A stretch of 64,000 nucleotides of DNA from Bugula neritina (Eukaryota > Bryozoa > Gymnolaemata > Cheilostomatida > Bugulidae), in contig OZ037767.1 of assembly GCA_964035545.1 (NCBI GenBank), positions 1,616,680 to 1,680,679 of the forward strand, written 5' to 3'. The position numbers and the translations under genes are program-made. The notes below the pieces were generated by a model. It worked only from the letters and a program-made list of their open reading frames with translations, was not told where the DNA came from and did no database searches. Shown here one piece after another: positions 99 to 58,672 of this stretch; positions within the stretch are counted from its first letter, which is position 1; each line of letters opens with the position of its first letter.

Positions 99-3000
99 TA
101 GGAGGCATCCTCGTCTGAGCCTCATTTGCGAGGTATATAAGACTAGCAAAGTGGATGGAGAACTGGAGCACCACTGAGCATATAGTATAGAGATTAAATA
201 TGTTGGTTAAGGGCCTCTTCTCTGACAGGGTCTTCAATGGCTACAAATTGAACAGTAAACTTCTGCTTCTACATTGCTTCACACGAGTTATGAGTACGTA
301 ATTCATTGTTACTAGCATCATTACCTCTTATAGAGACTTAAGCTTAAAATCACAACTAAACCAGGTGGCTGTAGATAATGCAGCATGTACAGCAGAGATA
401 GAGCTACGTAAGATACATGTATTCATCAGTGTACATTTACCTGTGACCTAGTTATAAACAGGAAACAGCCGGCCAGCAAGAGACCTTGAACTGTAGCCTG
501 TGTATCACTAAACTTGATGCCATCCAGAAAGAGCACACTTTGAGTATAGGCTAAGATGAGAGCATTGAGAGCCAGTATTTTAAACATCTGTAGAGTTGTG
601 ACAAGAGTGCATCTGCCTTGCTTGATGATGTGACACACTAGAATATATTATTATAGAGGTAAATAGAGAGAGTCTATAGTAAACACATAGAGGTAAATGA
701 AGAGTATATAGTAAACATATAGAGATCAAGGAAGCAGGTACCTGACTGTATGGTAGAGTACTTAGAGGTAAATGGAGAAGCTATGCTAGCATCTCCCAGT
801 TTAACCACAGTACTTTCTGCCTCTTCCATTTCCTTCATCATTTTCTCCATCTTTTCCATCCTCTGTCAGACACAAGTGTATACATATGTTACCATGGGAA
901 CTGACGCGTTACCATAGCAACCATAAGTGACATTTAGCAACATTTCACCAGGTAAACCCCAACACATTCATACAACTAAATGAGGCTTACATTAGCTGAG
1001 TTTCAATATGTTGAAAAGTGGAGACTATAAAACAGATATTTATAATGTGCGGTTACTTAGAATACAAAGTAAGTATATACACTACCTGGTAAGTATATAG
1101 ACTACCTGGTAAGTATATAGACTACCTGGTAAGTATATACACTACCTGGTAAGTATATACACTACCTGGTAAGTATAAACACTACCTGGTAAGTATATAC
1201 ACTACCTGGTAAGTATATAGACTACCTGGTAAGTATATACACTACCTGGTAAGTATATACACTACCTGGTAAGTATATACACTAGCTGGTAAGTATAAAC
1301 ACTACCTGGTAAGTATATACACTACCTGGTAAGTATATAGACTACCTGGTAAGTATATAGACTACCTGGTAAGTATATACACTACCTGGTAAGTATATAC
1401 ACTACATGGTAAGTATAAAAACTACCTGGTAAGTATATACACTACCTGGTAAGTATATACACTACCTGGTAAGTATATATAAAACCTGTACAGTAGTAAA
1501 CACACACACGTACATTAGCAAGCTGATTTGTCTCCCCAGCTCTGGCAGCGGCAGCTCGTCGACTCGGTGCCCGGACAGCAGGTGATGGTTTGATAGCCTT
1601 AGCTGTAGCGCCGTTAGCAGAGAGGGTGTCAGTGGAGGACTCCCCATCCTTAGGAGCCTTTGGTTTGTGGACATGAGGCTTCTTCATAGCGGAGAGTAAG
1701 GCCACACCCACGTGGGCGTGTTTGAGAGCCGCGACGTCATTGGTTCCATCTCCACACATGAGTGTAGTGTAGCCCAGTTCCTGCGTAGAAAGGAGATCTG
1801 ACTCTATCAGATATTTAATGTGAATATTCAAAGCTTTGCATCTATTCACACGGAGATATTAACATCTGCTTTACAAAACAACCCACCATCCAGGGAACAA
1901 GACAACCAAATTTATAATATAGCAAAAAGGAATCTAGCTTTCCCAGCACACAGTAACGTGATAGCTGTTTCATATTTGAATATACGTTTAATATATAAAT
2001 CACACTGAGTTTACGCTGTCCAAGAGATGAGCTACCTTCTATTGAACGATGAACTTATAAAGATTCCATAATTCATTCCAAATAATATATCAATTGAACA
2101 GCATCACTGCTTAGTATAAGTATGCATATGTATAGCTTATAATATACATATATAAGGTGATATCTACAGCTTATAATATACAGATATAAGGTGATATCTA
2201 CAGCTTATAATATACAGATATAAGGTGATATCTACAGCTTATAATATACAGATATAAGGTGATATCTACAGCTTATAATATACAGATATAAGGTGATATC
2301 TACAGCTTATAATATACATATATAAGGTGATATCTACAGCTTATAATATACAGATATAAGGTGATATCTACAGCTTATAATATACAGATATAAGGTGATA
2401 TCTACAGCTTATAATATAGAGCTATAAAGTGATATATATATAGCTGCAGAACGCACCTTCATAGTGGTGATAACCAACTCCTTCTGTTTAGGTGTAACTC
2501 TGGCAAATACTGCAGTGCAAGGGATAAGTTTCTTAGCCAGTCCGAGGGATTGCAGGTGAGTTAGACCCTGTAACATATGCATATGATATGATATATATGA
2601 TAGTCATAGAGTAATATATACACATTATATGCATATATATGATAGTCATAGAGTAATATATACACACTACATGCATACATATGATAATCATAGAGTAATA
2701 TATACACATTATATGCATATATATGATAGTCATAGAGTAATATATACACATTATATGCATATATATGATAGTCATAGAGTAATATATACACACTACATGC
2801 ATATATATGATAATCATAGAGTAATATATACACATTATATGCATATATATGATAGTCATAGAGTAATATATACACATTATATGCATATATATGATAGTCA
2901 TAGAGTAATATATACACACTACATGCATATATATGATAATCATAGAGTAATATATACACACTACATGCATATATATGATAGTCATAGAGTAATATATACA

Positions 3001-6000
3001 CACTACATGCATATATATGATAGTCATAGAGTAATATATACACACTACATGTATACATATGATAATCATAGAGTAATATATACACACTACATGCATACAT
3101 ATGATAGTCATACTGGGTGAACTCAAGTTTCAGTGCAGTTGTTCACTTAATGACTTTACCATAAACCTAGCCTCAGGGAATCACATTGCACCTACGGGGC
3201 GTGCATAATTCATCACAATACGCAGTCAAGGAGAAGAGGATTCAAAAGCTAATCACAATGAAATAGTTCACTGTTCAACCTATACAGTCTATGTTAGAAC
3301 AGAAGTGGACAAACAGACACAATCCACATGATAACCTTGAGATACAACTACTGCATGAAGTAACATGTCTTCTTATAAAACACAGCAGACGTAATAGCAC
3401 CACAAACCTCTCCAGTGATACATAAATCATAGGACTTGAGTTTAGACAGAGTTTCCGTAGAGACATCAAACACCTCTGCACCATCTACCGACTCCCACCT
3501 CCAGCCCTGAGACTTGGAAGGTTCAGTGGTGATGAGGGTGTGGGGTTTCACCGTCATCTTCAACTCCTTCGCTATATGACAGGCCGTCAGCGGGTTATCA
3601 CCGGTTATCATGCATGTCTACAGAGCATAGCAAACAGTAAATAGAATTGATATATCAATACATAGGACTGATATATCAATAAATAGGACTAATATACCAA
3701 TAAATAGGACTAATATACCAATAAATAGGACTGATATACCAATACATAGAACTGATATATCAATACATAGCACCACTGATCATGACCAGCTCTGACACTC
3801 ACATAATGAGAACTCTCTTGTATCTCCTTTATGGCGTGTTTAGAGTCGGGTTTCAGCGGACAGGAGAGGGCAATAAACCCAGCAAACATGAGGTCCTTCT
3901 CCACATCACCTCTACTCAACTCCCTTATCTGCTCAGAGAAGACGAGTCATTTAGTTTTAAACTATTTACAGCTAGAAATATGTGAGCTGCACTTACTTTT
4001 TTATCTTATCTGTTATATCTTTGCTATTGATGTAAGATAAACAAAATATGTAAAATCATTCAAATTTCAAATATTTTAACCTTTTTTATTTATATAGAAT
4101 AAATGAAATAAAAAACGAAACATTTTTTATAGCAGAGTTGACTTAATAAATGAAATAGTATAAAACCTTCAGAGAGATTGCTATATTAACACCAACTCTA
4201 TCAACACAAAAGACAAAGCACTTCTCTCACACTCAGTAGAGTACAAGGTACACACACCTGGGAGTGAGCGAGACGCCCCAGTGGTTTGTATCCCAGGGCT
4301 ATAACTCTGGCACCGCGTCTTGCTAGAGACAGGTAAGTCTTTTCATAGTACGTAGGCAACTCCTTGAACTACAAGTAAACACAATAAGTCTATCCTTGAA
4401 CTACACAAAGTATTTGAATAAAAATAATTTATTGGACTAGATTATAAAATAAACACAATAAACTTCAGACACATAAGAAACTCACTTGAAGCTCTAAATA
4501 AAGCCCTAGGCCCTAGACTAAACAAAGCCCTAGGCCCTAGACTATACAAAGCCCTAGGTCCTAGACTATATAAAGCCCTAGGTCCTAGACTATATAAAGC
4601 CCTAGGCCCTAGACTATATAAAGCCCTAGGCCCTAGACTATATAAAGCCCTAGGCCCTAGACTAAACAAAGCCCTAGGCCCTAGACTATACAAAGCCCTA
4701 GGCGCTAGACTATACAAAGCCCTAGGCCCTAGACTAAATAAAGCCCTAGACCCTAGACTATATAAAGCCCTAGGCCCTAGACTGAGAGACTCACCATGTG
4801 TTGGAGGGTCTCCGGAGCCCCCTTAACAGTCACCAGAATCTCATTCTCAGTAGTCCCCGGGGGCTGGTACCCCGCCACTACACTCATCCTCTTCAGGGCG
4901 CTGGAGAAGTGAAATCTGTGGAAGATCTTCATAGCGTTTGCCTTGACCTTCGTAGACTTGTTGGGACACACCCCATCATCTGAAACGATTGTATCAGTGG
5001 TTAAACTTACACAGCTTCAAACGTAAAATACAACTAAAATCACAAAGAAATGTCACAAATAATGTTACACAATAAATCATTACACAATCAGTTATATGAA
5101 AAAAATTTTCAATGTAGAAATTCTGAGTCAATGTGATATTAATAAGCAGTATAAATGTTACTGTTGTTGACTTAAAAGTAGATTAGTAAAAGCTTGTTAG
5201 TTTACCTCTTTCATCCTTTTGAGGTGAAACAGCCAGAATGATGAAATAAAATATAATATAATATTATGCTATAATGTAATAATTTAATATACCATATTAT
5301 GTTATAATGTAATATGTTATAATTTAATATACCATATTAGAATATAATATATTGCAATGCACTATAACAATATATAATAATGTAGTATACCCTATTATAA
5401 TAATATAATGTATAATAATATAATGTATAATAATATAATGTATAATAATATAATGTATAATAATATAATGTATAATAATATAATGTATAATAATATAATG
5501 TATAATAATATAATGTATAATAATATAATGTATAATAATATAATACAGAATATACACACTTTTCGTGGGTTTCCAGTTAATAGCCTTGAGAGTTGCCTTC
5601 TCCAGAGGGTCACCTACCAGTTCCCCATCATCCAGCACCACCAGCGCTTGACAACTGGCCAACACCTGAATAGTCTCAACAGGTGCCCTCTCTACACTCT
5701 CCAGTTGGCTGGGATTTTCTCTGATAACAGAAAATCCACAAAAACTCAGTTAAAGAAGATACGTCATCACCTTGTATGACGTCAGACCGGCTATACAGTT
5801 ACCTGGTAATACAGTTACCAGGTAATACTGGTATGTGTTACCAGGTAATACTGGTATGTGTTACCAGGTAATACTGGTATGTGCTACCAAGTAATACTGA
5901 TATGTGCTAACAGGTGGTGAAGGACATACAGTACTTCCAGTTGCTCAGTACTGCATCAAACAAAGCTGCTAGAAGCTACATAATTAATGGCCCCCAGCCA

Positions 6001-21100: not shown

Positions 21101-24100
21101 GGTATGTCAGAGGTGTCAACTATGCTCTATATAGGGTGTCAGCTATACTCTATATATAAGGTGTCAGCTATGCTCTATATAGGGTGTCAACTATACTCTA
21201 TATAGGGTGTCAACTATGCCCTATATAGGGTGTCAACTATACTCTATATATAAGGTGTCAACTATACTCTGCAGAGGTGTCAACTATGCCCTAAGGAGGT
21301 GTCAGAGGTATCATTACCCTGTCTCTCTCTTGTTGCAGGTTTATATACGAAACAGAGAGACACAATGGAGTGGGAGAATTGCTGGAAATACTCGGTAGTA
21401 TTATCAACGGTTTTGCTCTTCCTCTCAAAGATGAACACAAGTCATTCCTCCTCAAAGTGCTCTTACCTCTGCACAAAGTACGAAGTCTTTCCGTCTACCA
21501 CCCGCAACTAGCTTACTGCGTCGTTCAGTTCCTGGAGAAGGACCCCACGCTAACCGAACAGGTATATTCCTCTCTCACTCTTTCGCTCATCTTAGTTGTA
21601 GCCTAATATTCACAATATTCCCAATATCACAATATAATCACATAACTGCGCTATTTCTAGGTCACAGTGTTATTATGTAGCTGTGCTATTTCCAGGTCAT
21701 ACTTAGCCTCCTGAAATACTGGCCTAAGGTCCACAGCCCCAAGGAAGTCATGTTCCTCAACGAGTTGGAGGAGGTGCTGGACGTCATCGAACCCAACGAG
21801 TTTACAAAAGTCATGCAGCCTCTGTTCCGTCGCCTCGCGCAGTGTGTTTCCAGTCAGCATTTCCAGGTACACAGGCTAAGAGTAGCTCCTGGATAGACTG
21901 AGAGTCTGTTTGAACTGCTCACCCAGCTTGCCCTTCTTTCAGTCAGCAAACAGTCTCAGTTTAGCTGTTGGCTGTCGGTCTGCTTGTTTTGACATTCAGA
22001 CGAAATATTCACAACATTTTTCTGTGAGACATGAACCTGTTGGCTTTAGTAATAAATCATGTTGGAAGTTAGTGCAGTTTCATTGAACGAATCCACGTAA
22101 CATGTGAATATTTCTGTATGTTCCCATTTCTCAGAAGTATAATTTCTTACTATTGGCTCTTCCTAAAGTGGTGAATGAAATGAAGTGTGAAACTTAACCT
22201 AAATATAACTGATCATATCTGACTTGACTAACTCACTCCGCCAGTAGTATAACCAGCATTATACAGAGTCATGTGAATTTAGTACTATTGTTGGGCAGTT
22301 GGTTGTGGTGCAGATTGCACTTTGTTATAGAGATAGCTATGATGTTGGCCTGTCTACAGATTACAGTTGTGGTGTAATCCATGTTACATATTAATCTGTT
22401 TTAGGCAATTTCATGCAAATTATGCTGTGTTTTGAAAATTACTTCGATACTGTTTACGATTTGTTTTTAAAGTAATTGTAATGCAGATTTTACCTTCTTA
22501 TATCGAACTGTAACTTTATTTTCAATGCAACTGTGACGCAGTTTACACTTTGCTGTCAATACAGCTGTGCTGCAGTTTACACTTTACTTTCCAGGTAGCC
22601 GAGAGAGCCCTTTACTACTGGAACAACGAATACATATTGAGTCTAATATCAGATAATGTCAGCTCCATCCTCCCCATCATGTTCCCTGCATTGTATAAGA
22701 CCAAACAGCATTGGAACAAGTTAGTCTTCTTGTGTTTTTGTTGAATTTTATTATTTCTATTTGTCTAATATTAGCCACAGAGAGATGTGGTAGTTTCAAC
22801 TGTAAAGATACTGTTGCTTTCTCTTTATTAATATTTGAAGTTAATAAAATATGTACAATTTCTTATTATATGTTGCGTGTTTATTCTGTCAGCATGGAGT
22901 CTTTATAGAGCTTTTTGCATGTTACTAAATCTCTATTTCATTGAAATGGTGTATGAACAATATTCTTATCATTGACATCTAGTTGAGTCTTTACCTGCAG
23001 ACTAACATATATCCCTGTTACAGGACTATACATGGACTAATATACAACGCACTCAAGCTGTTCATGGAGATGAACCAGAAGCTGTTTGATGAGTGCACAC
23101 AGCAGTATAAACCTGACAGACAAAAGTAATCATTCTGATACCTTGTAGCATTAGTATAATAATAAATTCTACTTCATAACATTATATAATAATTTATATA
23201 ATCTGAAATCCCATAAGTCTCAAGGTCAAATCAGTTTATGAGTGAATTTTATCGATTGATGCTTTTAAAGCTTCTCTACTTTTATTGGCTAATTTATTTT
23301 ATTTTTAATATTTATTTTTGTTAGGTTCATTTGTTTTTATTTATTTCATCACCTGAGATTTTTACAACTCAGATACAGAATGCAGGGTTGTTCGCAGCCT
23401 GCTGTTTTCTACAATGTTGTGTTTTCAGTTTTATAAAGTTGACAGTAACTTATTTTCAAGTAGTTGCTAATCAGAATGGTAATTAAAATTTATGCTAGCA
23501 AATCATAGAAAACCAGCACTGAAGTGTTGTGTATATCACACATTGTCTGTTGCAGTTTGTGCCTCGTGGTATCGTTATTCCATTTTTTGTAGAGAAAAAG
23601 AAAAAAGTCGGGAGAGGGAGGAGCAGTGGTCAAAGTTAGAAAAAGTTGCATCCACTAACCCTCTTAAACAGCAGTTCCTAAAAAACGGTTAGCAATATCA
23701 ACACTATAAGCAGACGGCGTGTAAATTGCCTTATTCAACTTGTGACGCTAGTTTCTGTTACTTCATAAACCTGCCAACCTTTTTGCACTCGTAAAGTTCT
23801 ATTAAAGCAGCAGAAATCATTTTACTTACTATAGTATCTTAGCTTTTCAGTGTAAGACTCGTCTTCTTTTGACTGCTACTTTCTGTACCCAGGTACTTCT
23901 AGCGAAGATGCTTCAAGTGTTACTGACTCCAGTGCGGCACCAAGTAATGATGAACCTGTCACAGAGGGTCTAAATCATCTACAGCAGGAAGCTGGGGAGG
24001 TGAGTCTACGCCCCGTTTAGTCAAAATATTCAAAACAATAAATTTTATAAACTTATTTTACATACTTTGTTTTCTGTTTCTCCTCATCCTTTTTTCGTTT

Positions 24101-24285
24101 CTGTTACTTCTGGTTACTAGTATTTTGTGGTTTCTCAGCTGAAGACTGTAGAGTCTACCTCTACGGGCACTAGGAAGGTTTTGGTGAGACGAAAGTCGGA
24201 GTTGCCTCACGACAACATCACCCTGAAAGCTCTGGAAACCCACAAACGCAAAGAGGATTACTTGTCAACCATAAAGAAAGATTAG
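15158..24285 (+). CDS. PPP2R5: PP2A regulatory subunit B56 (delta/gamma-like)
   Basis: Substrate-selecting B' subunit of protein phosphatase 2A. Exons: 15158-15184, 15973-16050, 19196-19415, 19869-20068, 20383-20586, 20971-21101, 21339-21561, 21696-21866, 22595-22719, 23024-23125, 23593-23687, 23893-23999, 24121-24285. Phases join throughout, giving about 615 residues, close to vertebrate PPP2R5D. The Lys/Ser-rich N-terminus is variable; the HEAT-like B56 core runs from NRELQALP to the [12 protein letters not shown] helix. Recognisable stretches include [77 protein letters not shown] and [14 protein letters not shown]. The C-terminus keeps VRRKSELP, the delta-class basic motif with a phosphorylatable Ser. 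Exon 3 ends in a GC donor (GCAAGT). The last exon could also start 18 bp later at a second in-phase acceptor. Confidence 0.97.
16505..16625. repeat. 31-bp repeat, 3-4 copies
   Basis: Copies of GTTTACCTAGTTAGTAGCCA with its 11-bp tail, in PPP2R5 intron 2. The rest of this 3.1-kb intron (16051-19195) holds AT-rich unique sequence and the TACTG/TATA array at 17315-17515. Confidence 0.85.
17315..17515. repeat. Degenerate TATACTGTATAC-type array
   Basis: About 200 bp of imperfect 9-10-bp units such as ACTGTATAT and ACTATACAC in PPP2R5 intron 2. The continuous open frame through it is Tyr/Leu/Ile repeats only and is not a gene. Confidence 0.85.
19416..19417 (+). other. GC-AG intron 5' splice site in PPP2R5
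   Basis: The exon ends TTTGCAG| and the intron begins GCAAGT. No GT is available that keeps the conserved protein in frame with the next exon (19869, AC ACT GCA). GC donors with this strong flanking match are a known minority class. Confidence 0.85.
19678..19858. repeat. ATATT-type low-complexity tract
   Basis: AT-rich array (units like TATATTATATTATACTCTATC) filling the end of PPP2R5 intron 3 up to the acceptor at 19868. Confidence 0.85.
21102..21300. repeat. Diverged minisatellite resembling the adjacent exon-intron junction
   Basis: Units of about 21-24 bp such as CTATATAGGGTGTCAACTAT follow the PPP2R5 donor TTCTATAG|GTATGTCAGAGG. The shared word TATAG followed by a GGTGTC-like hexamer suggests the array grew from the junction, but the match is short. 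Confidence 0.6.
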
Positions 24286-26763
24286 ACATTCTCATGCACC
24301 TTGTCTCTTAATTCAAGTCTGTGATTCTAGCTGTAAAGCGCCAAGTTTAAGCAGAGACTTGAAATACCAAGTCACGGAATGCATGCTGCCTTGGTTGGCA
24401 TATTTTCAACCAATGTTAATTTTTTTTATTTGTAATTATTATTCAGAGTGTTGTGGACGAAACAATTCGTATGTGCCTAATGTTGCCAGCAATTAGCAGC
24501 ACTTGTTCTTAGTGTCACTATCATTATGACACTTGCTACTAGTGTCACTTAGATTAAGACATTGTAAGTATTAATTGAGTAATTGGTGGTCAATTTCACT
24601 ACAACTCTGATTTCCATGATGCTGCTTTAGGAATATCTGTGCTAGCACGCTACAGCTTCTCCATTCACTCGGGTCTAGTGGTGTGTGTTTTTTATATTGG
24701 CATGCTTCGTCACATTAGCTTTTATGGCACCAATTGACAGCGTTATACATTTTTCTTTCCTAATATTTTACTAAAAGTTGCATGAAATTCAAAATCTATT
24801 AGTTAGATGTACACAGTCACTGTTTTAGATGATTTTTTTATCTTACTATTTCATTTTATCTTTACAATAGTAATTGCTACTCGGCTTCGGAAATTCCATT
24901 TAATTATTCTCATGAGAAGTTGCCCAATCAATCTGAGACAGACTAAGTTTTACTTACTATTAATTTGTTCCATGCAGCACACAACTTATGAATAATTTTG
25001 TTCTATATTATAATAAATATTTAATTGACATGAAACAGCATTGTTAAATTTATAATGATTAATATCTTTTCTTGTATAATAACCAGAATTTGAGTTATAC
25101 CATAAAATTGAATCTCTCAAACTTGTGTATAACTTGAGGGACCAACTGTCTTGGCAATATCAAAATTTTGGGAATTGAATTCAGTAGTATTTTAAAATAG
25201 AATAATATCTACACATGATTTCTTTATAATTGGTGGTGCTGAAGTAGACCTGAAAGTCTGCTATGCTTTTAGAACTAAATTCACTCAAATCTATTTAATA
25301 AGGAATTGTAATAACCTACATAAAACTCTGCCATTTTGCATTGCCTACATGAAGCTTGCCATACAACTGCCGCAACAAAATATTATTACCGTATATATAT
25401 AGAAACATTTGTGTGTTGAACAAATCTATAATATACCATATTCAGGTTTAATAGTCAAAGATATGTTTAAACTTTCATCATAAGGGTTATCTTAGTCAAC
25501 GACATTATTTATATTGATTTTAAACTACCTATATTATAATATATAGTTATATAATGTTAAACTTCTGCTCTCACAGGGATTTGAACCACAGACCTTCAAC
25601 TTGCAAGCTAACATGCTTACTACTATACAGTATGAGGCTCCTGGAAAATCTTAACATTATATTAACTATATTATTATCTATAACAACCTGATGAGATGGA
25701 AAGCTCATTATGATATTTTCAAACTTTTAATTATGAGAAAATAAAATATCCAGCTGTGCTGGTCAATCAAAATTTAAATGAACCAACTAACAATTCAAGC
25801 AGATTGTTTGTGCATAAAGAATATAAATCGATATTCTACTTTAAAAATATTGCTTTGAAATTTTGCTTTATATAAATAATCGTGTGTCTCTTGAAAAGTT
25901 GATTTCCTTGACATTGATGATCAGGTTTCAAGTTATATCATACAAACTTGAAGGTTGGCCTAACAAATACAATATTATTACTTTCATATTTAGAAGGAGA
26001 TCAATAACTACCACTTTGAGACCGGTGATTAGAATATAAACTCATTTAATAGATCAATCCGATTAATAGCTAGAAGTGTTAATATACATCACAGAAGCTG
26101 TTGAGATTTGAATTCACCATGGCTAAGGAATCGTGTTATCATAACTTGAAGCTAATTAGTAAGTATGGCGCTATAAATAGGCAATATAATATATGTATAT
26201 AAGAATATCTTGTCACTATTAATATGTTTCAATTATAACTAAATTGGGAATAACATTATATTTGAAACTTAAATGCCAATAAAAATTAAGGTTTGTAACT
26301 TTCTATAAGTTCTATTCAGGTGCTTTGATAATGTTGTAGTGGCCATTTGTGTGTTATGGTGTTTATGGTACTTTATTGGAGCCGTAAGTTTTGACTGATG
26401 CCATAAGGCAACGTGAAAACTATAATAGTAATGTATAAAACAGCATGTTAGTAAAAATATGCAAAGATGTGTAATAAGTCACCAAGTTATTGCCAAACAA
26501 TTGAGATTTCATATTCTAATGAAAGGCAGAGATATTAGTAATTATTAAGAATAACTGTATTACCTGATTAGCTCTACTAGTTCTATAAAACGACTGCACT
26601 GGTCATGGCTCTAGCACTTGACTAGCTACCATGGCTAGGCCAAGTCTAGAACGAGCACATGTGCAAACTACAAAGCCTTATATAGCTAGCTAGTTTACAA
26701 GATGTGTTGGCTAACATAACAGCTCAAAACAGCTGCTAATTCTATAGAAAACAAATACATAGC
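24286..26763. other. Gene-free interval downstream of PPP2R5
   Basis: Presumed PPP2R5 3' UTR, with a candidate AATAAA at 25012-25017, then AT-rich sequence without supported ORFs. A degenerate tRNA-like segment lies on the minus strand near 25568-25648 (see rejected items). Nothing else recognised. Confidence 0.5.
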
Positions 26764-26767
26764 TTAA

Positions 26768-27538
26768 AGGATTGCTCTATCTTGTCTAATAAATGGCCAT
26801 TTAGGTCAAACACACATAATATTGTGTTTTTCTAAGCATGCATTGACAAAAAGCATTTGACCAAAGGTAGAAAAAGTTAGTTGAAGTTGAGGGTGTAGAT
26901 TGGTAACAGCCAAAACGCCGATTTTGAAATGAGCTGGGAAATGTGACGTAACAGCGCCAGCATTCCTGCTGGTCACGTGACTATACAAATGAATAACTAT
27001 AGAAATATGACTGTGAGATGTGATCTTTCAGCTCGTAATTTGTATATTTATAGAAGTGCAAATGTGAATTATCTCAATCTATAGTTTTTTGACACGTTAA
27101 ATAACATGTATGTGATAACATTAGGCCATATTTTGCTTGTAAGCATAGAAAAAAGCATTGCAAAAACATGCATTCTTTAGGATGAATGCCTGCGATCGAT
27201 CTAAACTAGGTCAGATTGTGCAATGTTACGGGCGCACCAAAGCTGACCTATATAGCGCACTGTAACTGCTTGAGCGTTATTGGTTGATGTTGCGCTCAGC
27301 AACCTTGAATACTAGCGTTATAGTTAGCACGTGCAGCATAGTTACTGCAGGCGTTCACACGTCACGTATTAGGCTATTCTTTTTCATGGCTGAAAATTTT
27401 ACCTCCCTCAAAATTGGAATTTTGAAAAGCTGTTTTCTAGGCATATATCCCTTTGCAAAGTCACAATTGTTTGCATACACATTAGATTATAGTTCATAAT
27501 TATAATGTGATTGTAATAAACTAAGATAGAGCAATCCT
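26768..27538. mobile_element. TTAA-flanked inverted-repeat element (piggyBac-like MITE)
   Basis: The left end AGGATTGCTCTATCTT is exactly complementary to the right end AAGATAGAGCAATCCT. Both are bordered by TTAA (26764-26767 and 27539-27542), the target duplication typical of piggyBac-type elements. The 771-bp interior has no transposase-like ORF, so it would be non-autonomous. The piggyBac assignment rests on the TTAA site only. Confidence 0.75.
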
Positions 27539-27892
27539 TTAAGGTTAATGACAATAGGTTTGACAAACTAAGTATAACTAATTTATGGATGCATTTTCAA
27601 TACTTGGGTTTCTATTTATTTGTACTAACAGGATGAGTTACAAAAAGGCCATGCTGGCCGTTACGAATATATTTAAACTAATGAGCTTAAAAAAATTGAA
27701 AAGATTGCTATTCCATAAGTTTTAGCTGTGGCAAAACAGTAATTTTATTTTAATGGATAATAATAATAATAATAATGCAGCCAAGATAATGTAGCAGATG
27801 AGTCTAATTAAAAATGAAAAAGCACTTGATAAATAGCATGTGAAATAAATGGAAAATTTTTGGTATATATAAAAACATTAAATATCAGGTTA

Positions 27893-28007
<115 letters not shown>

Positions 28008-28102
28008 AAATGAGTGTTTATAAAACGTTACTAGAGTGCTCTATAGAAATAAATCTAGAGCATAAACATTAGAAGAAATAAAATGAGATTTTATTAATAT
28101 AA

Positions 28103-28165
28103 TGGCATTTATTACTAGTAGTTTCATACACAAGAACGATGTGCACTCATCAGATAAATTAGCCA
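28103..28165 (-). ncRNA. Type I hammerhead self-cleaving ribozyme
   Basis: Minus strand, 5' to 3': stem I strand ending AUUUAU; core CUGAUGA (28147-28153); stem II GUGCACA/UGUGUAU, seven pairs including G-U, closed by a 7-nt loop; core GAAA (28122-28125); stem III ACU/AGU around a 3-nt ACU loop; cleavage triplet GUA with predicted cleavage after A at 28113; then stem I AUAAAU, which pairs perfectly with AUUUAU and continues GCCA/UGGC after a 2-nt bulge. Every invariant core nucleotide is present and all three helices form. The very short stem III is typical of retroelement-borne hammerheads, which often work as dimers. Confidence 0.88.
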
Positions 28166-28218
28166 CTATGATTGCTTACAACTATAAATAATGTAATATG
28201 TAAATATACACAGATTAA

Positions 28219-28302
28219 AGCTAGAAGATCAGAATATAACAAAGAGGTAGCATTGGAATTAATTCCAATGCTACCTCTTTGTTATATTCTGATCTTCTAG
28301 CT
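28219..28302. repeat. Perfect 84-bp palindrome (42-bp arms, no spacer)
   Basis: The two arms meet at AATT|AATT (28260/28261) and are complementary at every one of 42 positions, starting AGCTAGAAGATCAGAATATA. It could extrude as a cruciform or fold as a long hairpin in RNA. Confidence 0.97.
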
Positions 28303-28360
28303 GTTATTATTTACTCTGCTCTGCACTGCATTGAGCTCTCTTTAGTGGTAAACTATACAC

Positions 28361-28364
<4 letters not shown>

Positions 28365-28428
<64 letters not shown>
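28365..28428. repeat. (TA)n microsatellite, second tract
   Basis: About 32 TA dinucleotides on the right side of the element, mirroring the left tract. Confidence 0.97.
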
Positions 28429-28431
<3 letters not shown>

Positions 28432-28540
28432 TATATATATTTGCGTGTGCGTGGGCGTAGGTGTGTAACCTGATATTTAATATGTTTTTATATATAACAA
28501 AATTTGTATTATATTGTTTTATATTGCTTTGCTTTTTACA

Positions 28541-31500
28541 ATGTTTGTGCCAGCAGTGATGATACTCATGCTGCTAGCAATTGACAGCACTTCAGGATCT
28601 GAGGAAAACTGCCAGGTGACTGACTTTGCTACCATCCCAGGATACCAAATTTACGCCATTACCCCTCACCCGAGTCTTTCTGGAACCTTCCTTGCTGGTA
28701 CTTCGAATGGCTTGCACATGGTTACCCAGGGTGCACCTTCTTCAACTGCTCTTATAAAGTTCGCTTTTATTAGCTTCAGTTCTTACTGTGTAACTTGTTG
28801 TTGAATATGATGAGTTTAGGTTATATATGATATTTGTGCTTTTCTGTTATGTGTTTTATCAATAGCAGATGCATATGGTTAAAGCCATCTGCATAATGCA
28901 ATCATTGTTTGTTTAAACATGAGCTTTGTAAAACCAAGCCTGTTTTGTATATATTTTATTTTTTTATTTTCATTATTACTTTAAAAACAAACAAAAAGCA
29001 AAACATAGCTATTAAAGTTTTAAAAAATGAAATTTTACCAGTTTCTTTCAATGATTTTCTTTTCCGTTCTCGATTTTTCAGTTCAGGAGAAATACATGGT
29101 GTGGAGACAACTTCAGATGGTTTTATCCTAATCAGTGCCAAAGCAGAAAACTGCATCAAGTCTGCTGATCCTACAAGTTTAGCTACAAGCACCTGGGCAG
29201 GAGGATGTTCATCCTCGGGATATGTTGATGGTGAGTCACTTAGCACCTGACACCTGACACCTGACACCTGACACCCGACACCTAGCACCTAGCAATTGAC
29301 ACGTAGCACAAAGCACATGATATACTTAGCACCTGACACCTGACACCTGACACCTGGCACCTGACACCTAGCACCTAGCAATTGACACCTAGCACCTAGC
29401 AATTGACACCTAGCACCTGACACCTGACACCTGACACCTTAGCACCTGACACCTGACACCTAGCACCTAGCACTTGACACCTAGCACAAAGCACATGATA
29501 TACTTATAACACTTGATACCTGACACCTAACACCTGACACTTATCACCTGACACTTAGTACCTGACACCTGAGATCTAGTCTTTGACACTCAACATTTAT
29601 TACCTGAAATCTGTCCACATTTTACATCAGCATTGTTCTTAGCAAACTAGAGGCATGTTATGCTTGTTTAAAAATGCTTAAATAAGCAGAATTTTCTGAA
29701 AATTACAGATTAATTATAAACATTAAAACAAATTATTCCAATACCAGCAAGGTTTAGCAAGTGCTGTGCAAAACACCCCTCTGTTGAAAATGTTACTATC
29801 CCTATATGTTTACTTATGTAATAGCTGGTTTCAACAGCAGTGGGTTTCACAAGAAGCCTTCCAACTGATTGTCATACTGACATAACATATATATGTTAAA
29901 AGTTTTGTTATTTTGTATTGGGAAAAATATTTATAATAAATGCATATATCGTCTCTATATATAGAGTATAACATAAAATAAATATTATAACTTAATATAA
30001 TATAATATAATAGTGTATAACATAATATAATATGATATAACATATATAACAGAATATCATATAGGTAATAAAATATAATATAGGTAATAAAATATAATAT
30101 ATAATGTAAAGGTACAATGCAGAATGCCAGATTCAACGAGGTTTTCTCATTGGCTGCTGATGAGAACAAAGAGAAGTTTTATGTAGTGGATGGAACTCGA
30201 CGAATACGCATGATTGAACCAGGTAAGTTTCTCATGTATATCTCTAGTAATCTCTTTTTCTCTTCCTACCCATATCCTTTCTATTAATATTTTTCTAATT
30301 ATATTCTTTCTAACAATTTCCTTTTTATTATTATATCCTTTCTGTTGATATATCCTTTCTAACATGATCTTTTTATACATATACGCTCTATTAATACTCT
30401 TTTTAATATTAGTTTATTTATTAATCTTCTTTCAATTTTTATTTCTAATAATATTTCTTTAATTAATATTTTTATTATCATCCTTTCTATTAGTAAGTTT
30501 TTATTCTAATATTTTTGATAATACTTTTATCCCTAATACTTTTTCTAATAATGTTCTTTCTATTATAACATTTTTTAATATTAATCTTTGTATTAGTTTC
30601 CTCTCAATTATTATTTTTATAAATATGAATACTTTTTTTTACTGAAATCGATGCGTTATCCCACCATAAATGTTTAAACTGCCAATATTGCTATATTCTG
30701 TGAGAAAATCTTGTAGCTCATCATATAACGCATCCTCATAAGAAATTATTATATTCTAACTATCATTTGACTTATAAATTTCTTATTTTAGGTTTGCATC
30801 AGTTAAGCTGAAACAGCGTTTAATTTGCTAATCACTTGCATTACATTCTACTTCACTATATTATAGGCCTATTACATTATACTTTAATTCATTATAATAA
30901 CATGATGCTGTCGTATTGTATGATATTTTTTACATTATACTGTACAACAAATTATATGACATTACCTATATACTTTATTATATCATATATCAAATTATAC
31001 TTTAATAAATTATATTATATTATCTAACATTGTATTATATTATACTTCATTGTATTGTATTAAATATTACATTGCATTTTACTGTATCGTATTATATTGC
31101 ATCATGGTATCTTATATTGCATTATATCATATTAAGTTACATTATATCATATCGTATTACAGACACTAATACTGTTAGTACAGTAGTTAATGACTACGAA
31201 AGAGTCTCCTCTATGACCGTGGACAACTTCTCAGGAGATCTGTATTTCTCAGCCGACAGCGCTGTCTATAAGTATGACATCTCGGTTGGCCAGATCCAGC
31301 TGGTGGCCGGAGAGGGAGGCACTTCAGGTGACACGGATGGAACTCTGGAAGAATCTCGGTTTAATAGAATAAAAGTGAGTTATTTATTACCGTGACCTGA
31401 GGTTAGATATGGTGCTACCTGAGGTTAGTTAGGGTAGTCTGTAGCTACCTGAGGTTAGTTAGGGTAGTCTGTAGCTACCTGAGGTTAGTTAGGGTAGTGT

Positions 31501-33619
31501 ACAGCCACCTGAGGTTAGTTAGGGTAGCCTGTAGCCACCTGAGGTTAGTTAGGGTAGTGTATAGCCACATGAGGTTAGTTAGGGTAGTCTGTAGCCACCT
31601 GAGGTTAGTTAGGGTAGTCTGTAGCCGCCTGAGGTTAGTTGGTTAGTATTGCTTAGTAAAAGTCAGACAAGTTTTTTTAAGTTTGATTTAAAATAGGACT
31701 GTTGGGTGCTGATTTCATGCAGTTGAAATGTAGTAGTGATCCGATTCGCTGATCATTATTTAGCGAGTCCACTTTTCGAGGTTCATTTTATTGAGAGGAT
31801 CGATCGAAATTTTAAAATAGAATAATTTGTAACATGTGGCTTAAGATTTGCTTCCCTTGGCAACGTATTGTGTGGGCAGATAACTCCAGAGGCAGTGGAT
31901 TTTAACTACATGTGAAATTCCTCTCTGCTTTGATGCCAAATTCTTACCTGCTGAAATATAAGTTAATGCAATTTCAGGAAATGTCTTCTACTTTGTGTAT
32001 ATAGTTGTATGTACATATATTTGTATATATTTATATATAATATTTGTATATATTTGTCTGTCTACTCGTTATGCATTCTTATAGACTATTTCATGAAATA
32101 TAGGGCATGGCATCCTTTAGAGCTAATGTAAGGCTAGTAGCTGCAGACACTCAAAACAAGAAGATAAAATTAATTGACACCAAGGAAGAAACTGTGACTA
32201 CATTATGTGACGGAAATGGTTAGTCAGAAATAATACCTAAAAGTTGATTTAATTTACGGAATATGATACACGCATGATGCATTTAAAAATAATTATATTA
32301 GCATTTAATTAGTGACAATAATAAAAGTTCAGCTATACAGAAACAATGTTTATTACTAATTATCAATATACATAACTGTTTAAATATATGAAATATAATT
32401 CTAATTTATAAAACTTATTAACATGGTAAATTGTAAAGTGTTGATATGACAGTTAACTGATGCTTCCAGTTTTTACACTTAAGTATCAACAAATTCAACA
32501 AAAATCAAAAAAATTTTATCTATATTTTAAACAAATTTATTAGAAATAGAAAAACTTGCATATATATTTTTTTAAAAAACTGTTGGTGTTATATTCAAAA
32601 ATGTTGGTGTTTAGGAGTCTTCAAGAGTGAGTAACAACTTAAGGTGTAAAAGTGATAGTTTATACTAGTTACCAACTACAATGTAGACCCCATAGCAAAC
32701 TGTTACTATAATATCAACTAATAATGTTTTTGCAAATCTTAAACTCAATATAATATAAACTTTTTAGATGTACTTATAGATATCCAAAAGCTGAATACAT
32801 GCTTTTTGAATAGTTACAGATTATACGAGTAACATTTGTGTGACTCGTTCTTCCTTTAGGGCTTTTTTTAATTAGGTCTGTTTTTTGCACACTGATTGGT
32901 AGATTTTGTTATACTTACTTCAACATGCAGCCGGCTGTGACATCAACACACCTTCATCAGGGCTATTCTCAGAAGATGGAGACTTCCTGTTTAGTGACAA
33001 CGATGCCATCAAAAAATTATCTTGTTCAGGTAACCTACTTCTCTATTACAAGTATCATTTATTTCTCCTCTCAAAGTAAAACACAGGTAAAAGAGAAATG
33101 AATATTTTAATAATTTGCTACAAATTTACCTACGGCTTGCAAAATAAATTTATGCTTTGTAAAATTTACACATATTTCAAACTACTTGTAACATTGTTAT
33201 GTAAGATTTAAGCATATTTTTTACATTGTATTTCAAAAGAAGTTACCGCTACTACCGCTGCCACTACTACCGCTGCCACTACTACCGCTGCCACTACTAC
33301 CGCTGCCACTACTACCGCTGCCACTACTACCGCTGCCACTACTACCGCTGCCACTACTACTACTCCTTCCCAGTTTTTCATACCAGAAATTACTACAAGT
33401 CCAACTAGGAGAACGACCACAGCTAGAGTCTTCAGTGTATTAGGAGACCGTCAGCTAAACTCTATGATGTTGAAGTTACAGGCTCTGAGCTGCAAGGGTC
33501 GACAAATCTTACCTTCCCAAAAGATGTATTCCGACATTCTGTGTTGTATCCACTGTGTCATCCACTCCAACTGCGTGTGTGTAGAAATAGCTGACCAGGA
33601 GTGCTCATTGTTTGACTGA
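28541..33619 (+). CDS. Secreted NHL-repeat protein with Thr/Ala-rich segment
   Basis: Exons: 28541-28758, 29082-29230, 30112-30222, 31163-31374, 32104-32218, 32931-33029, 33240-33619; phases join and the frame ends at TGA 33617-33619, about 427 residues. The N-terminus MFVPAVMILMLLAI looks like a signal peptide. Exons 2-6 encode a propeller-like region; GTMQNARFNEVFSLAADENK followed by FYVVDGTRRIRMIEP is a clear NHL repeat, and a second DGTLEESRFNRIK follows. Exon 7 opens with eight or so TTAAT-type 5-residue repeats (mucin-like, likely O-glycosylated) and ends in a tail with seven Cys. The donor of exon 1 (AAA|GTTCGC) is weak and was chosen by phase. No transmembrane segment is seen. Exact function unknown; an extracellular scaffold or ligand-binding role is inference. 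Upstream in-frame TTG at 28514 is not a plausible start. Confidence 0.85.
29232..29585. repeat. CACCTGACAC-type minisatellite
   Basis: Mixed 8-10-bp units (CACCTGACAC, CACCTAGCAC, and similar) starting directly after the NHL-gene donor at 29230. Confidence 0.9.
31392..31645 (+). repeat. 30-bp minisatellite with repeated donor-like sites, about 8 copies
   Basis: Unit close to CCTGAGGTTAGTTAGGGTAG plus TCTGTAGCTA, beginning about 18 bp after the NHL-gene donor at 31374. Each unit contains GAG|GTTAGT in the sense of the gene, a usable-looking 5' splice site, but a stop codon precedes the array in the exon frame. Confidence 0.9.
33246..33360 (+). repeat. 15-bp coding repeat (Thr/Ala)
   Basis: About eight near-perfect copies of ACTACTACCGCTGCC at the start of the last NHL-gene exon. 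It encodes a Thr-Thr-Ala-type stalk; copy number is probably polymorphic. Confidence 0.93.
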
Positions 33620-33821
33620 CTTTGGCCCCTAATCTTATAGTACTGTATTCCAATCCTTATTGTTTTACAATAGGGGCCCCTAACTGTTCACCCCACTCTT
33701 TGTTGTTTGATGCTATGAGTTCCTAGCCTAATGTTATTGTCATTGCTGTTTGTCAAGTTGCCATACAGATTGTATTTCTCAGCATGTTTTATACATATGA
33801 CAGAATATGGCATACAATTTT

Positions 33822-33827
33822 AATAAA
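33822..33827 (+). other. Candidate polyadenylation signal of the NHL gene
   Basis: AATAAA about 200 bp past the TGA, in an AT-rich 3' flank. Confidence 0.6.
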
Positions 33828-36747
33828 TTGTTCTTATAAATTGAAACACTATGTATACATGTAGCTGTATAAATTGAGGTAATGTTATGTAGCTATGTTA
33901 TAATGCATGCATGTCAATATGATCACACACTACCACATAGATATTACAATATGTCTGTTTTTGATTGAGCAAAGCATTGATTAGGTAGCAGTGGTCGTAT
34001 ATTGTTTTAACTGGTAAATTCTATTTCATCAACTTTATTATTTGTGAATAGACCGACTTACAAACTCTTATGAAATTGATAACCAATGATTCATAAAATA
34101 TATTTGTAACCACAAGGTGAGATTATTGCGATACATGAAATAATATTGCATAATGTTCATGACAAGTGTTTGTAGTACAATTATGTATCAGTGTTTATAT
34201 TATCTAATATTTTGATGTTTCTGTCCGGTGTTCAGTTTATGTAGTTATATAATTTGTAAACTATATAACGGTATTTTTATTATGCAGAGTATATAAGAGC
34301 ATCAGATTTAATAAAAACCTGCGTACACATAAACATTATGTTAGGCAACTTCATGATATAAATAAGTACAACCTTTGACCTATGATTCTACGCTGCAATG
34401 CGTAGCTGGATGATAGTGTATCACTATTGCACATGTTTCTAGTACATTGTAGTATACCAATGAGCTATATGTTGGGGAATTCCAGTTACTATGGAAACAG
34501 TTAGCAGAATCCTCTAGAAAATGAAGGTTAATGTCAACACACTGTACTTGTAGTCAAATATAAAGTGCAACAAAAGTCACTATTAATTGTATTCAATTAT
34601 ACCAAGTGTTGCAAAATTCAACCAGATAGTCTTTGAAATTACTTGCTTATCATTATTATACATTTTCCTCTGATGTAGTTACGGGTTTTGACCCAGAAGC
34701 CTTAAATGTATCTCATTTTGCTAACAAATATTTAGTGGAACTTATCCAAATCATTATCCAGAGCATGCTTGTATAGTAGGCCTATACACCCTCAAGTTTG
34801 ATTAACTATCATGGTATAGTTATATACATGTAACCATCATGATATATTATTATAATGGAATATAATTATCATGGTATAATATATCATCATATTAATTCCG
34901 ATATTTTATCCTAATTGATACATACTCTGCTAGTAAAGAAATTATCAGTTTCATGAGCTTCCGTTAAATTAGACTGCTATTAGCTAAGAAAAGCAGTATG
35001 CAACTGAAAGCCGTATTGCCAGCAAACTGTTCACAGTTGGACACAAGATGGGAGTTATAGACTAAAAATAAAATAGTTGGGTGTGTCATTTTATTTAAGA
35101 TACACCTTTAATGTCAAAGGGAATAGCTTTTCTAGCTTTTGATAAGCTGCAATATGTTGAAATAACAAACAGATTATCCAGTAAATATCTAAAATGTGAG
35201 CGACGGGAAAGTTGACCGTTTCCCAAAATTACTAACAACTACGCTCAACAACATAACTTTGTACATAAAAGTTTTGAACATTTCAAAGTAAATTAACCCA
35301 AATACTTATTTGTAAAACTTATTTATTTTATGCAGCTTATGGTAATGAACAGAAAAAGACCATTTTTTAGCCGGTAAGAAAATTGAGTTGTTAGTACCCT
35401 TTGCATATTAAATAGAGCAATGTAATCATATTCCACTATACCATGTGATACACTGTATACATCATATAATATGCAATATGCATATAGTACATGATATTAG
35501 TAGTGTGACAGCCTAAATAAGCGCTACTACATACATATCATACAGGGTATAACTAAAGAGGAAATGGTGTCACACACATTTTTGTAGCATGCTCTTTTTA
35601 ATAAACATTTACTCTTTAGAATTGCTTGCATTTATATAATTCTTACCAACATTTTCAAAAACCCCAGTATGGAATAAATTAATGTAAACCATAATTTTAC
35701 ACGAACTGAAATGTAGTGTGAAGCTTGTTATAATGTTGGGAAATCCCAAAGTTAGTTCGACGAAGTTGGGAAATACTTTCATCATGCCACGCAATTCAGC
35801 TCATGCGGGATGGTACTTTAAAACAACAATGAACAAGCAAAAATTTATAGAATAAAATGGACTATCAACTGCGCACGGGTGTAATGATTTAATTGCGCAA
35901 TAGATAAAGCTAACAGTCCGTGAATCACAGCGTGACCTCATTGAACTGTATCGGAACGTTTATAATGACCAGAATGAGGTCTGTACTTATCAGTTACCTA
36001 GTAGCTGGTGTGATAGGAGAGTCAAACCACCAGGATAGTTGATGCAGTATTTGGTAAGTAACTTTAATAAAAACAATGACAATGTGTCTATCTTTCATAG
36101 TCGAGATTTTTACATTCCATTACAAAATTTTAAACGGAGGATCATAAGATGAATGATAGTTGTGTTCTAAAACCATTTCCAATTCTTGAAAGTAGATACA
36201 GCACAGTTGTGCAGAGAAAGCACAACTGCAAATAAAAATAATTTAGATTCTACATTATAAAATGGTTATTAGGTTTAAGGTGTAGTTTACGTAATATCCC
36301 AATGAACAAGATATACTTTATATATAATTCATATAGTATTAAATGATAAACTATGTTAATACATCCATGAACTATGAGGAAAACAGAGAACATGTGTAAT
36401 GGTTAGGGGAAGTATACCCCCAGTACCCCCTGCTAAACATAACTCAATAGATTATAGTCAGGAACGGCAACTCCAAGTCATGCCGTATCTCCATGCGGTG
36501 CCATACCAGTAAGCAACTGCAGACGACACCGCCGGAATCTTGTGTCGTCCAATCAGGATCGACTACATGTATATAAGCAATGCCTTCCGGCACCCACAGA
36601 CAGTGTTAGTAGCTACTAGGATAACTATGTGTAATTGCTTCAATTATTGTATATTTTCTCTTTTATATGTATCATACTTTTATCGTGTGTAATTGATTCA
36701 ATACAGTTCTCTCGTTCCATGATCAACTCGTTTGGTCCTTCACATAA
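33828..36747. other. Gene-free interval between NHL gene and MITE
   Basis: AT-rich unique sequence. I see no ORF with protein-like composition and no strong repeat. Confidence 0.5.
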
Positions 36748-39247: not shown

Positions 39248-43088
<3,841 letters not shown>

Positions 43089-48400: not shown

Positions 48401-51400
48401 GACTTAGAAATGAGTGAAATAAAATCCACAATATATAGCCAGTAGCCTTTTATTAAAATTCTAGAGTTATAAATAAAGCAAGTTTTATGTAATCAAAAGA
48501 GGTGTTGAAAATAAACAGCATACGGTTTAGTAGTACAGTGTGTTAGGCACCGGATATGATAGCTTTGTCAATAAACTTTAGAAAATCAACTTAAAAGACA
48601 AAGAAGACTTTAGCTAAAGCAATTCAGCACAAAAATTATCGGCATAAAGTTGGCAAAAACACACAACTTTATGTAAAAATGACTGATAACAAAATAAACC
48701 ATAATTTCAATTGCAAAAATGCAATAACAAAATAAGGTATTATGAATAGAAACCAACAGCATTAAACAAAAATGAAGTCAAAAGATTTCATACAGATTTG
48801 TGTCACAGGGTCTTGTTTTGACAGCTTCATAAGAACAAGTGATGCTTTGCTGAGCTTCGGCATTCTGGATTCTGCAGCCTTTTATTTGTGTCCTGATGAC
48901 GTGACATCCTGTGAGCCACTCGAACAAATAGATCATAAATGTTGGTTTGGCCGGTGGGCAGAGTAAATTCTTCTCGGATGGCAGAGACAAAGTGATTGCG
49001 GTGGGCGGTGCTATCGTACAGAGTCGACATCAAAACAATGCAATTCTTAGCTCTTAGAATCATATGGTTGGAGTCATCTTTCTCAGTTACCAGCACATCT
49101 TCCAACTCTCTGTGTTCCACATCACTTCTGCAGAACGAGGACACCGGAGAGAGAGCTTTCTGGCAGGCTTGCACAATTATGAGCTGAAATATAGACCCAT
49201 TCATGTTCAACGAAATTTTTTATATGTATAGACTTTGGTATGTGTTGAAATTTTCATTCCCATTCAAGACACAAATATCTGAGCATTTAAAACTAAATGA
49301 GAGTGCGACTTACCAAAGGTATCATAGCTGGGATAGCCTTCCTTGTCTCATCAATGATCTCTGCGATTTCACCGCGTGAATTATTTTCACCAATCAAATT
49401 ACCTCCGAATCCATGAGACAGCAGACAGACTGATACTACAGAGCACCGGCTGTGAACCTTGTTAGTTCTCTCCACCAACCAGTTGCGCAAATCTCCAAAG
49501 CATTTCCACTCTTTAAGGTCAACAATGAACCCCTTAGACCGCAACACTGCGGCAAGTGTTTCAGCCTCTCCTAAAGCACCTTTTCTTTGTACAGAAGTAT
49601 AGCAAACAAAAGCGTATTTTCTAGCTTTACTCTGAACAGGTGGAATAATGAAATGATCGCTAACTGAGGACATGACTCCAATCACCGCGGTGGACATGGG
49701 GGTATTGCACAAATTTATAAGTAGCCATCGCTTTACGAGTCTTGGGAACCAAAGACAGAGCTCTTTGACTAGTGCTAAATTGTCAGACTTAACCGCCATG
49801 CTTACGATAGCAGAGACCAGCGAGTTCTGTGTACTCTTACACAGGATGGGGCGTACCAGTGAAGGAACATGGGAGCGGATCAGTTGAACCGACTTGACAT
49901 CCCGAGGAGTCTCACCATACACATTTGTTTGTCTCCTCAGCCTTTTCATGACAGCAGAGTCAATGAGTGAATACAGAGTATTAGCAATGTCCACACTAGG
50001 AGTGAGTGAAGCAGCCAAATGTAGCAAATTCTCCCCATGCTTGTCTGTAACTTGACAGACTGTGTTTTTGTTAGTTTCTGACAAAGATGATATTAAACGC
50101 TCAGTCAATCTGCTATTATTATTGAGAAGAGCATATTGTATGGCATTGAGTCCTTTATTACTTGTGTGACCAATCAATTCGTCAAGAGATTCGCTGTGGA
50201 ACTGGTTAAGAGGAAGCAACTGGAAGACTAGGTTCATGTTATCAGATATCACACACTGCTGCAACACATTGCATCCCTTGCTGTCAGTCACACTAATCAA
50301 ATTGATTTGCTTGCATATATCAGTCAACTTGAGAAGCGGAGTTAGAGGGCAGATGCTATCGAGTGGGAGGGCACACTTCGGAAGCTCAGATAACCAGTTG
50401 GCTGAGTTCTTCCATTCATCAGATAGATTAAACAGAAGCGTGAACAATATATCCATATTGTGACATTCTAATGCGTAATGAAGTGAGTTTTTACCTTGGC
50501 AATCTCGATGGAAAATAAGAGTATCAACTGCGGGTTGATGCAACTTGGCAAGTGTTAGTAGATGGGAGACAAACTCCAGTTTGTTGTCGATAACAGCACG
50601 CTGAAGAGAATTCCTTCCATAGACATCTTCTACTGATACCAAATCAATTTGAGTACAAATCTTTCGCAAGGTCTCATAATTACCTCTTCCATCCTCTGTG
50701 TTACACATCATCAGTTGAAGAATATTGAGCCCAATAAAACTGGTCCTAACGAATGACTTATGGCTTATGATGATAACTAACTTCACTCACTGCTATCAGT
50801 ACTACAGGCTGCGTGAATCTAATTTTCACGTTTCTACCCACCTATTGATAGTAAGACTAGAGATAAACTTAACTAATAACAATATGAACAAAAAATACCA
50901 TCACCTCAGATATCCTACTGTAAAACCCCAATACTGCCCTATGATTTGTATTGCAGAAATACAATTTCACAAGAAAATTGGTGGTAGTACATTGCATTGT
51001 AGAGTATTTTAGCTGAAGTATGTTTGAAGTAGATAGCTGACACAAAACTGTCAACATACAGCTAAACCGACAACTCAGTCTTAACTCTAAAGGTTAGGGA
51101 AAACCCCAGCATTAGTAATTAAATTCCCCAAACTTTTAGTTATTACGCAGTGAAACTGCATTCCATCATCAAGTCAGTAACAACCAACTGTAATTGTTGG
51201 CTGTTGTCCTGGCAACTTCAATGAAAGGAATTTCTAGTTACAGACATAGCAGTGTTATGCTTTACTTGGGCTAGTATTGGTGCATGCATAAGAAACTAAC
51301 TCAAAAACCTTCTTTGTATGTCATAAGATTAATTCTGATAGTTTGGAATACAAGCAGGTTACTTATATTATACATATTTCTTATTTATGAAACACTTGAG

Positions 51401-57984: not shown

Positions 57985-58322
57985 TCACTGATACTCGTCT
58001 GAAGATGACTTTCTAGTTGAGAGTTTTCTCTCCTTGAAGTAGTACTGATCATGACAGTTGAGATACAGGAAGGAGGCGTGTGCGTCAGTCAGCTGGTATC
58101 GAGAAGGTAACTCGTAAGCTACCCTATTGTCAGTTATAGTTAGCGCATTCAAGTCATCTAGTGTAGCGGCCCATATCTAAAATAAACGTTTTGAGTGAGA
58201 AATGACCGTATTTGTTTTAGTAATGGTAGTAGTAGTAGCAGTAGTAGTAGTAGTAGTAATAGTACTAGTAGCACTAGTAGTACTAGTAGTAGTAGTAGTA
58301 GCAGTAGTAGTACTAGTAGTAC

Positions 58323-58366
<44 letters not shown>

Positions 58367-58397
58367 CTAGTAGTGCTAGTAGTAGTACTAGTAGTGC

Positions 58398-58453
<56 letters not shown>

Positions 58454-58484
58454 CTAGTAGTGCTAGTAGTAGTACTAGTAGTGC

Positions 58485-58547
<63 letters not shown>

Positions 58548-58589
58548 CAGTAGCAGTAGTAGTAGCAGTAGTAGTAGTAGTAGTAGTAC

Positions 58590-58672
<83 letters not shown>

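Follow-up and report, generated by a model that had tools for sequence, protein, structure and literature searches.

Does the minus strand of the 64-kb window (the whole stretch of DNA that was analysed) carry a type I hammerhead ribozyme, and what kind of element would have brought it there? According to our analysis, the locus is best explained as a type I hammerhead, or what is left of one after slight decay, within a dispersed, non-autonomous repeat of an animal genome, a reading to which we give a probability of roughly 0.6. The identity of the motif as a hammerhead is, taken by itself, highly probable, due to its low expected frequency by chance and to two relatives in which the codon-fixed core positions are retained. 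The host unit may be of retroelement or of DNA-element origin.

Architecture and predicted folding of the motif

The first-pass annotation had described a complete type I hammerhead with CUGAUGA and GAAA cores, a seven-pair stem II, a 3-bp stem III with cleavage after 28113, and a stem I formed by AUUUAU/AUAAAU and GCCA/UGGC. All of these parts were found on the minus strand where they had been placed (Table 1), and the outer part of stem I proved longer by four pairs. The motif agrees with the consensus CUGANGA / GAAA / UH with A15.1-U16.1, all core positions being present, and its three helices, with stem I at the open end, can be drawn with standard pairs throughout. On the minus strand, stem II joins GTGCACA (28146-28140) with TGTGTAT (28132-28126) across a loop of 7 nt, and stem III consists of the pairs A-U, C-G and U-A (28122-28120 with 28116-28114). 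Stem I is made of an inner helix of 6 bp (ATTTAT 28159-28154 with ATAAAT 28112-28107) and an outer helix of 8 bp (TGGC/GCCA and four further pairs out to 28169/28099), separated by a 2-nt UA bulge (2/0) in the 5' strand.

Table 1. Positions of the motif, of its host unit and of the stretches shared with two relatives, in window coordinates
Feature	Position	Strand	Details
Type I hammerhead motif, including entire stem I	28099..28169	-	sequence and pairing
Core CUGAUGA, C3 to A9	28147..28153	-	CTGATGA 28153-28147
Stem II	28126..28146	-	7 pairs, two of them G.U; loop UCGUUCU; base pair 10.1-11.1 is G.U
Core GAAA, G12 to A15.1	28122..28125	-	28125-28122
Stem III	28114..28122	-	3 pairs, loop ACU; self-complementary except for the middle C (read from the sequence)
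A17	28113	-	precedes the predicted cleavage point 28113/28112
Left inverted repeat	27864..27893	+	close match; alignment starts at 27835
Right inverted repeat	28465..28496	-	close match; alignment extends to 28528
(TA)55 array	27895..28004	.	inside left repeat
(TA)37 array	28366..28440	.	inside right repeat; 94% matches
Palindrome	28219..28302	.	perfect, 84 bp
Stretch common to P0002	28044..28208	-	tblastn
Stretch matched by P0003	28163-28053	-	tblastn

The description as complete is justified for the core and the helices; it does not extend to the canonical G-C pair at 10.1-11.1, which is absent and replaced by G.U, to stem III, which is weak, or to the minimum-energy fold, which is not the hammerhead. 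The pair 10.1-11.1 is described as the most conserved hammerhead pair after A15.1-U16.1, and natural hammerheads with U.U at this place still cleave (PMC3088659); the axolotl HHR_Amex2, which is mispaired at 10.1-11.1, was 22% cut in one hour as a monomer (PMC7229834). The U at 11.1 of the window motif may be a decayed CpG (ACG to ATG). The UA bulge in stem I and the 7-nt loop II are both present, and, in comparison with animal retrozymes, no loop-loop contact could be assigned between parts of the window motif.

In the minimum-energy fold of the monomer (-16.3 kcal/mol) part of the core is paired and stem III is lacking, and the hammerhead fold (-14.5 kcal/mol) is less stable by 1.8 kcal/mol. 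Pair probabilities were at least 0.82 for outer stem I and stem II, about 0.4-0.55 for inner stem I and 2-3% for stem III; the stability of the motif against shuffled sequences gave a z of -1.06, with 27 of 200 shuffles as good. The motif is probably weak as a monomer. Amphibian hammerheads with a weak helix III have been described as poor monomers and better dimers (PMC7229834). Since the stretch from A15.1 to U16.1 is nearly self-complementary, as read from the sequence rather than computed, two copies of the window motif could share a stem III of 4 + 4 pairs.

A transcript of the minus strand, if one is made, would be expected to form stems I and II and to self-cleave between positions 28113 and 28112 by the usual hammerhead reaction. 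With three pairs in stem III and a G.U at the base of stem II, a lone copy would be expected to cut slowly; two copies joined through the shared stem III, with its 4 + 4 pairs around a C.C mismatch, would be expected to cut better. Such a ribozyme may help to produce RNAs of the repeat that are one unit long. For this particular copy, self-cleavage is a tentative prediction, and a somewhat doubtful one.

Chance expectation and covariance scores

The expected frequency of the motif was estimated with a descriptor that required the exact core, with N7 free, on an order-3 Markov background modelled on the window; its stem lengths were chosen after the candidate had been seen. When at least 6/3/5 pairs were required in stems II/III/I, 1024 Mb of Markov sequence gave no match. 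At the looser setting of at least 3/2/4 pairs there were 142 matches in 4740 Mb, three of them with at least 16 pairs, and the probability of the core with 16 pairs is about 8e-5 per window, both strands included. At the same setting, the single match in the window itself is the present motif, with 16 pairs. The bare core pattern is not rare (three occurrences in the window, 1.1 expected). An outer extension of at least eight pairs occurred in 3081 of 200,000 random trials when any bulge up to 5/5 was allowed, and in 114 of 200,000 with the 2/0 bulge seen here. Multiplying 8e-5 by the former fraction, we arrive at a chance on the order of 1e-6 per window with the outer stem included.

The covariance scores are less favourable. 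In a search with a 91-nt stretch, the Rfam family Hammerhead_1 (RF00163) reached 21.6 bits, under its cut-off of 34, with an E-value of 0.002 over 4227 families, the lowest among the four families listed for this stretch. Rescaled to the whole window by our own arithmetic, the E-value becomes about 1.4 for all 4227 families and about 3e-4 for Hammerhead_1 alone. No match was obtained in the whole window at the Rfam gathering threshold, and none of the 17 matches of a permissive Rfam search of 1401 nt was a hammerhead. A covariance score below threshold is one of the outcomes that had been named beforehand as speaking against the motif. Another, the lack of other copies that retain the core, is contradicted by two relatives that keep its codon-fixed positions.

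Relatives and host unit

The 44-codon frame that runs through the motif resembles no gene. Gene callers leave such non-gene frames in databases, and with this frame as the query the one candidate obtained was accepted: P0002, of 60 aa, on a jgi contig of 1272 bp (88% identity over 95%, E 6.9e-14). An alignment of the window frame with P0002 retrieved P0003, of 80 aa, on a jgi contig of 1044 bp (E 4.9e-19); two of 25 candidates passed in this search, one of them being P0002 again. Both P0002 and P0003 are spurious ORFs of metagenome contigs. The match to P0003 starts inside outer stem I, of whose 5' strand only the last two bases are included, and the part of P0003 before the match gave nothing significant in the window.

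G5, A6, G8, A9, A13, A14 and U16.1 are fixed by their codons in both relatives and all agree with the consensus, as does C3 if serine is encoded by TCN; the relatives are read from protein, and U4, G12 and A17 are left free by their codons. By the fewest codon changes, P0002 differs in four of 22 motif codons. Its single core change falls on N7, a position that tolerates any base, its change of M to T yields the canonical C at 11.1, and one inner stem I pair is broken. A change of A to V, found in P0002 and P0003, turns an outer G-C into G.U. In P0003, two of the 20 motif codons of the matched stretch differ (G at 11.1 and one G.U), as do both codons before the stretch; by the same criterion of fewest changes, the G at 11.1 leaves the basal pair of stem II unformed, and outer stem I is mostly lost. 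In the 3' flank, one of 20 codons differs in P0002 and one of 17 in P0003. The motif codons are no better kept than this flank, and therefore no constraint on the ribozyme is visible. These alignments show that the motif is part of a repeat, or at any rate that its sequence occurs at three places; one of the two relatives could represent this very locus in a closely related species.

In the window, inverted repeats delimit a unit of about 630 bp that contains the motif (Table 1); the repeats align with a score of 34, compared with a maximum of 18 in 2000 shuffles. The best reading of the unit is that of a degenerating copy of a mobile, non-autonomous repeat. When 27791-28560 was compared by BLAST with the window, the matches were its own arms and palindrome, together with weak matches, and no second copy was found; the best match outside the unit (E 0.003) lies at a TA array. 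One motif is present in the 64 kb, with no tandem copy, and no clear target-site duplication was seen by eye at the unit ends.

The exact patterns of the inverted repeat, the motif and the palindrome had no match in viral contigs, and those of the inverted repeat and the motif had none in the genome contigs of a prokaryotic collection; in both collections little is expected for an animal repeat. In an alignment-based search of the viral contigs, 50 stretches were matched by pattern and none was confirmed. Five plasmid records matched the query at its TA-array end with 70-76% identity; these matches were disregarded.

Read along the minus strand, the palindrome precedes the motif by 49 nt, and its RNA, from either strand, would be a hairpin of 40-odd bp. 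It may be a nested insertion. P0002 could lack the palindrome or contain it, the back-translated sequence scoring 27.6 against the joined flanks and 25.4 against the sequence filled by the palindrome, with at most 26.0 in 100 shuffles. The palindrome also drew Rfam matches (mir-577 with 46.2 bits, its cut-off being 100, and others), which were rejected as generic long-hairpin matches.

An ORF on the plus strand (28481-28804) has an ATG at 28541 and what we read as a start resembling a signal peptide; by the same reading, it begins 45 bp past the right inverted repeat. Due to this proximity, the element may sit at the 5' end of a gene.

Origin of the repeat

In the literature consulted, most animal hammerheads are tied to retroelements, namely retrozymes, Penelope elements and Terminons (PMC7229834, PMC7761336), and the first-pass annotation had proposed a ribozyme-bearing retroelement as the host. 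Our analysis does not show this: the unit carries inverted repeats at its ends, the motif is the only one in the window, and none of the eight window ORFs scanned with Pfam, four of which gave matches, encodes a reverse transcriptase, only one of the 34 ORFs of 22000-34500 being among the eight. In a more specific form of the explanation preferred here, a small circular RNA would have been made by hammerhead cutting and reverse transcribed, and the 360-bp segment between the TA arrays (28006-28365) would be one monomer of it, inserted into a TA tract of an older inverted-repeat element. The flanking arrays on both sides agree with this, as do the 360 nt and the low GC content, published animal retrozymes having about 170-400 nt and a GC content below 45-50% (PMC7229834). 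The motif shares with animal non-LTR retrozymes the type I topology, the short helix III, the low GC (PMC7229834; Cervera and de la Pena, 2020) and the setting in a non-autonomous repeat of an animal genome, and one axolotl retrozyme class has a U.U mispair at the base of helix II, comparable to the G.U of the window (PMC7229834). In contrast to animal retrozymes, however, the window unit forms no tandem array, has one motif, ends in inverted repeats and includes a long palindrome; the match to P0003 begins only at 28163, and the segment, folded as a circle, gives a z of -11.9 with the palindrome and is no better than shuffles without its 84 nt (z -0.62 on the minus and -0.94 on the plus strand; 60 shuffles each). 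We regard this more specific origin as rather unlikely. A fragment of a Penelope-like or Terminon retrotransposon as the source of the hammerhead is very improbable. These elements do carry type I hammerheads with a weak helix III, dispersed in animal genomes (PMC7761336, PMC6155905), but their hammerheads are described as minimal, usually without helix III, and the Penelope ones as standing in tandem within pseudo-LTRs, a setting with no counterpart at the single, 3-bp stem III motif of the window; the likeness to Penelope hammerheads that had been drawn from the short stem III is therefore loose.

The hammerhead might also be a built-in part of a MITE-like family of DNA elements with terminal inverted repeats, which we consider unlikely. 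Non-autonomous DNA elements of the MITE type are short units with inverted repeats at their ends and a palindromic interior. The window unit shares all three features; a clear target-site duplication was not seen by eye. To our knowledge, no MITE with a hammerhead has been described, and searches of a partial open-access library turned up no hammerhead in a MITE or inverted-repeat DNA transposon. If this reading were true, a self-cutting RNA motif would have been spread by DNA transposition and not by reverse transcription. It is quite improbable that the motif is a chance product, that is, a repeat whose hairpins happen to fit the hammerhead layout. The Rfam score under the cut-off, the two pairs broken among the relatives and a motif kept no better than its flank all agree with chance, as does the choice of descriptor stem lengths after the candidate had been seen, the number of windows first screened being not known; against it stand the low per-window probabilities given above, before and after inclusion of the outer stem. 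We retain a hammerhead in a non-autonomous dispersed repeat as the preferred reading.

Type I hammerheads in animal repeats are known already, and the inverted-repeat setting is what could add more: if a type I motif lies within a unit that ends in inverted repeats, the generality of the tie to retroelements can be put to the test. The W-elements of Schistosoma are likewise animal repeats with hammerhead sequences, for which functional evidence has been reported; these are satellite-like elements of a flatworm, and they are likened to the window unit by description, not by sequence (PMC8490949).

Elsewhere in the window, the Pfam domains are animal-like and comprise BTB-BACK, ankyrin repeats, a caspase domain and a piece of a P5A-ATPase. 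Such genes, together with the minisatellites described below, would fit a sponge as host, which is a guess; the partial open-access library yielded no paper on hammerheads in Porifera. The ankyrin repeats (49293-50783, minus strand) are followed just downstream on the same strand by a caspase-type peptidase domain (48827-49216), and the two ORFs are possibly one gene. The BTB-BACK protein (60096-61343, minus strand) has a single database relative, on an lgn contig, and the 91% identity between them indicates that sequence exists from a species close to the host. The window also contains many minisatellites with units of 20-44 bp, for example at 1069-1479, 2591-3112, 42407-43023 and 55839-56201 (91-95% matches in these four), and a TAG-type array of 634 bp at 58218-58851.
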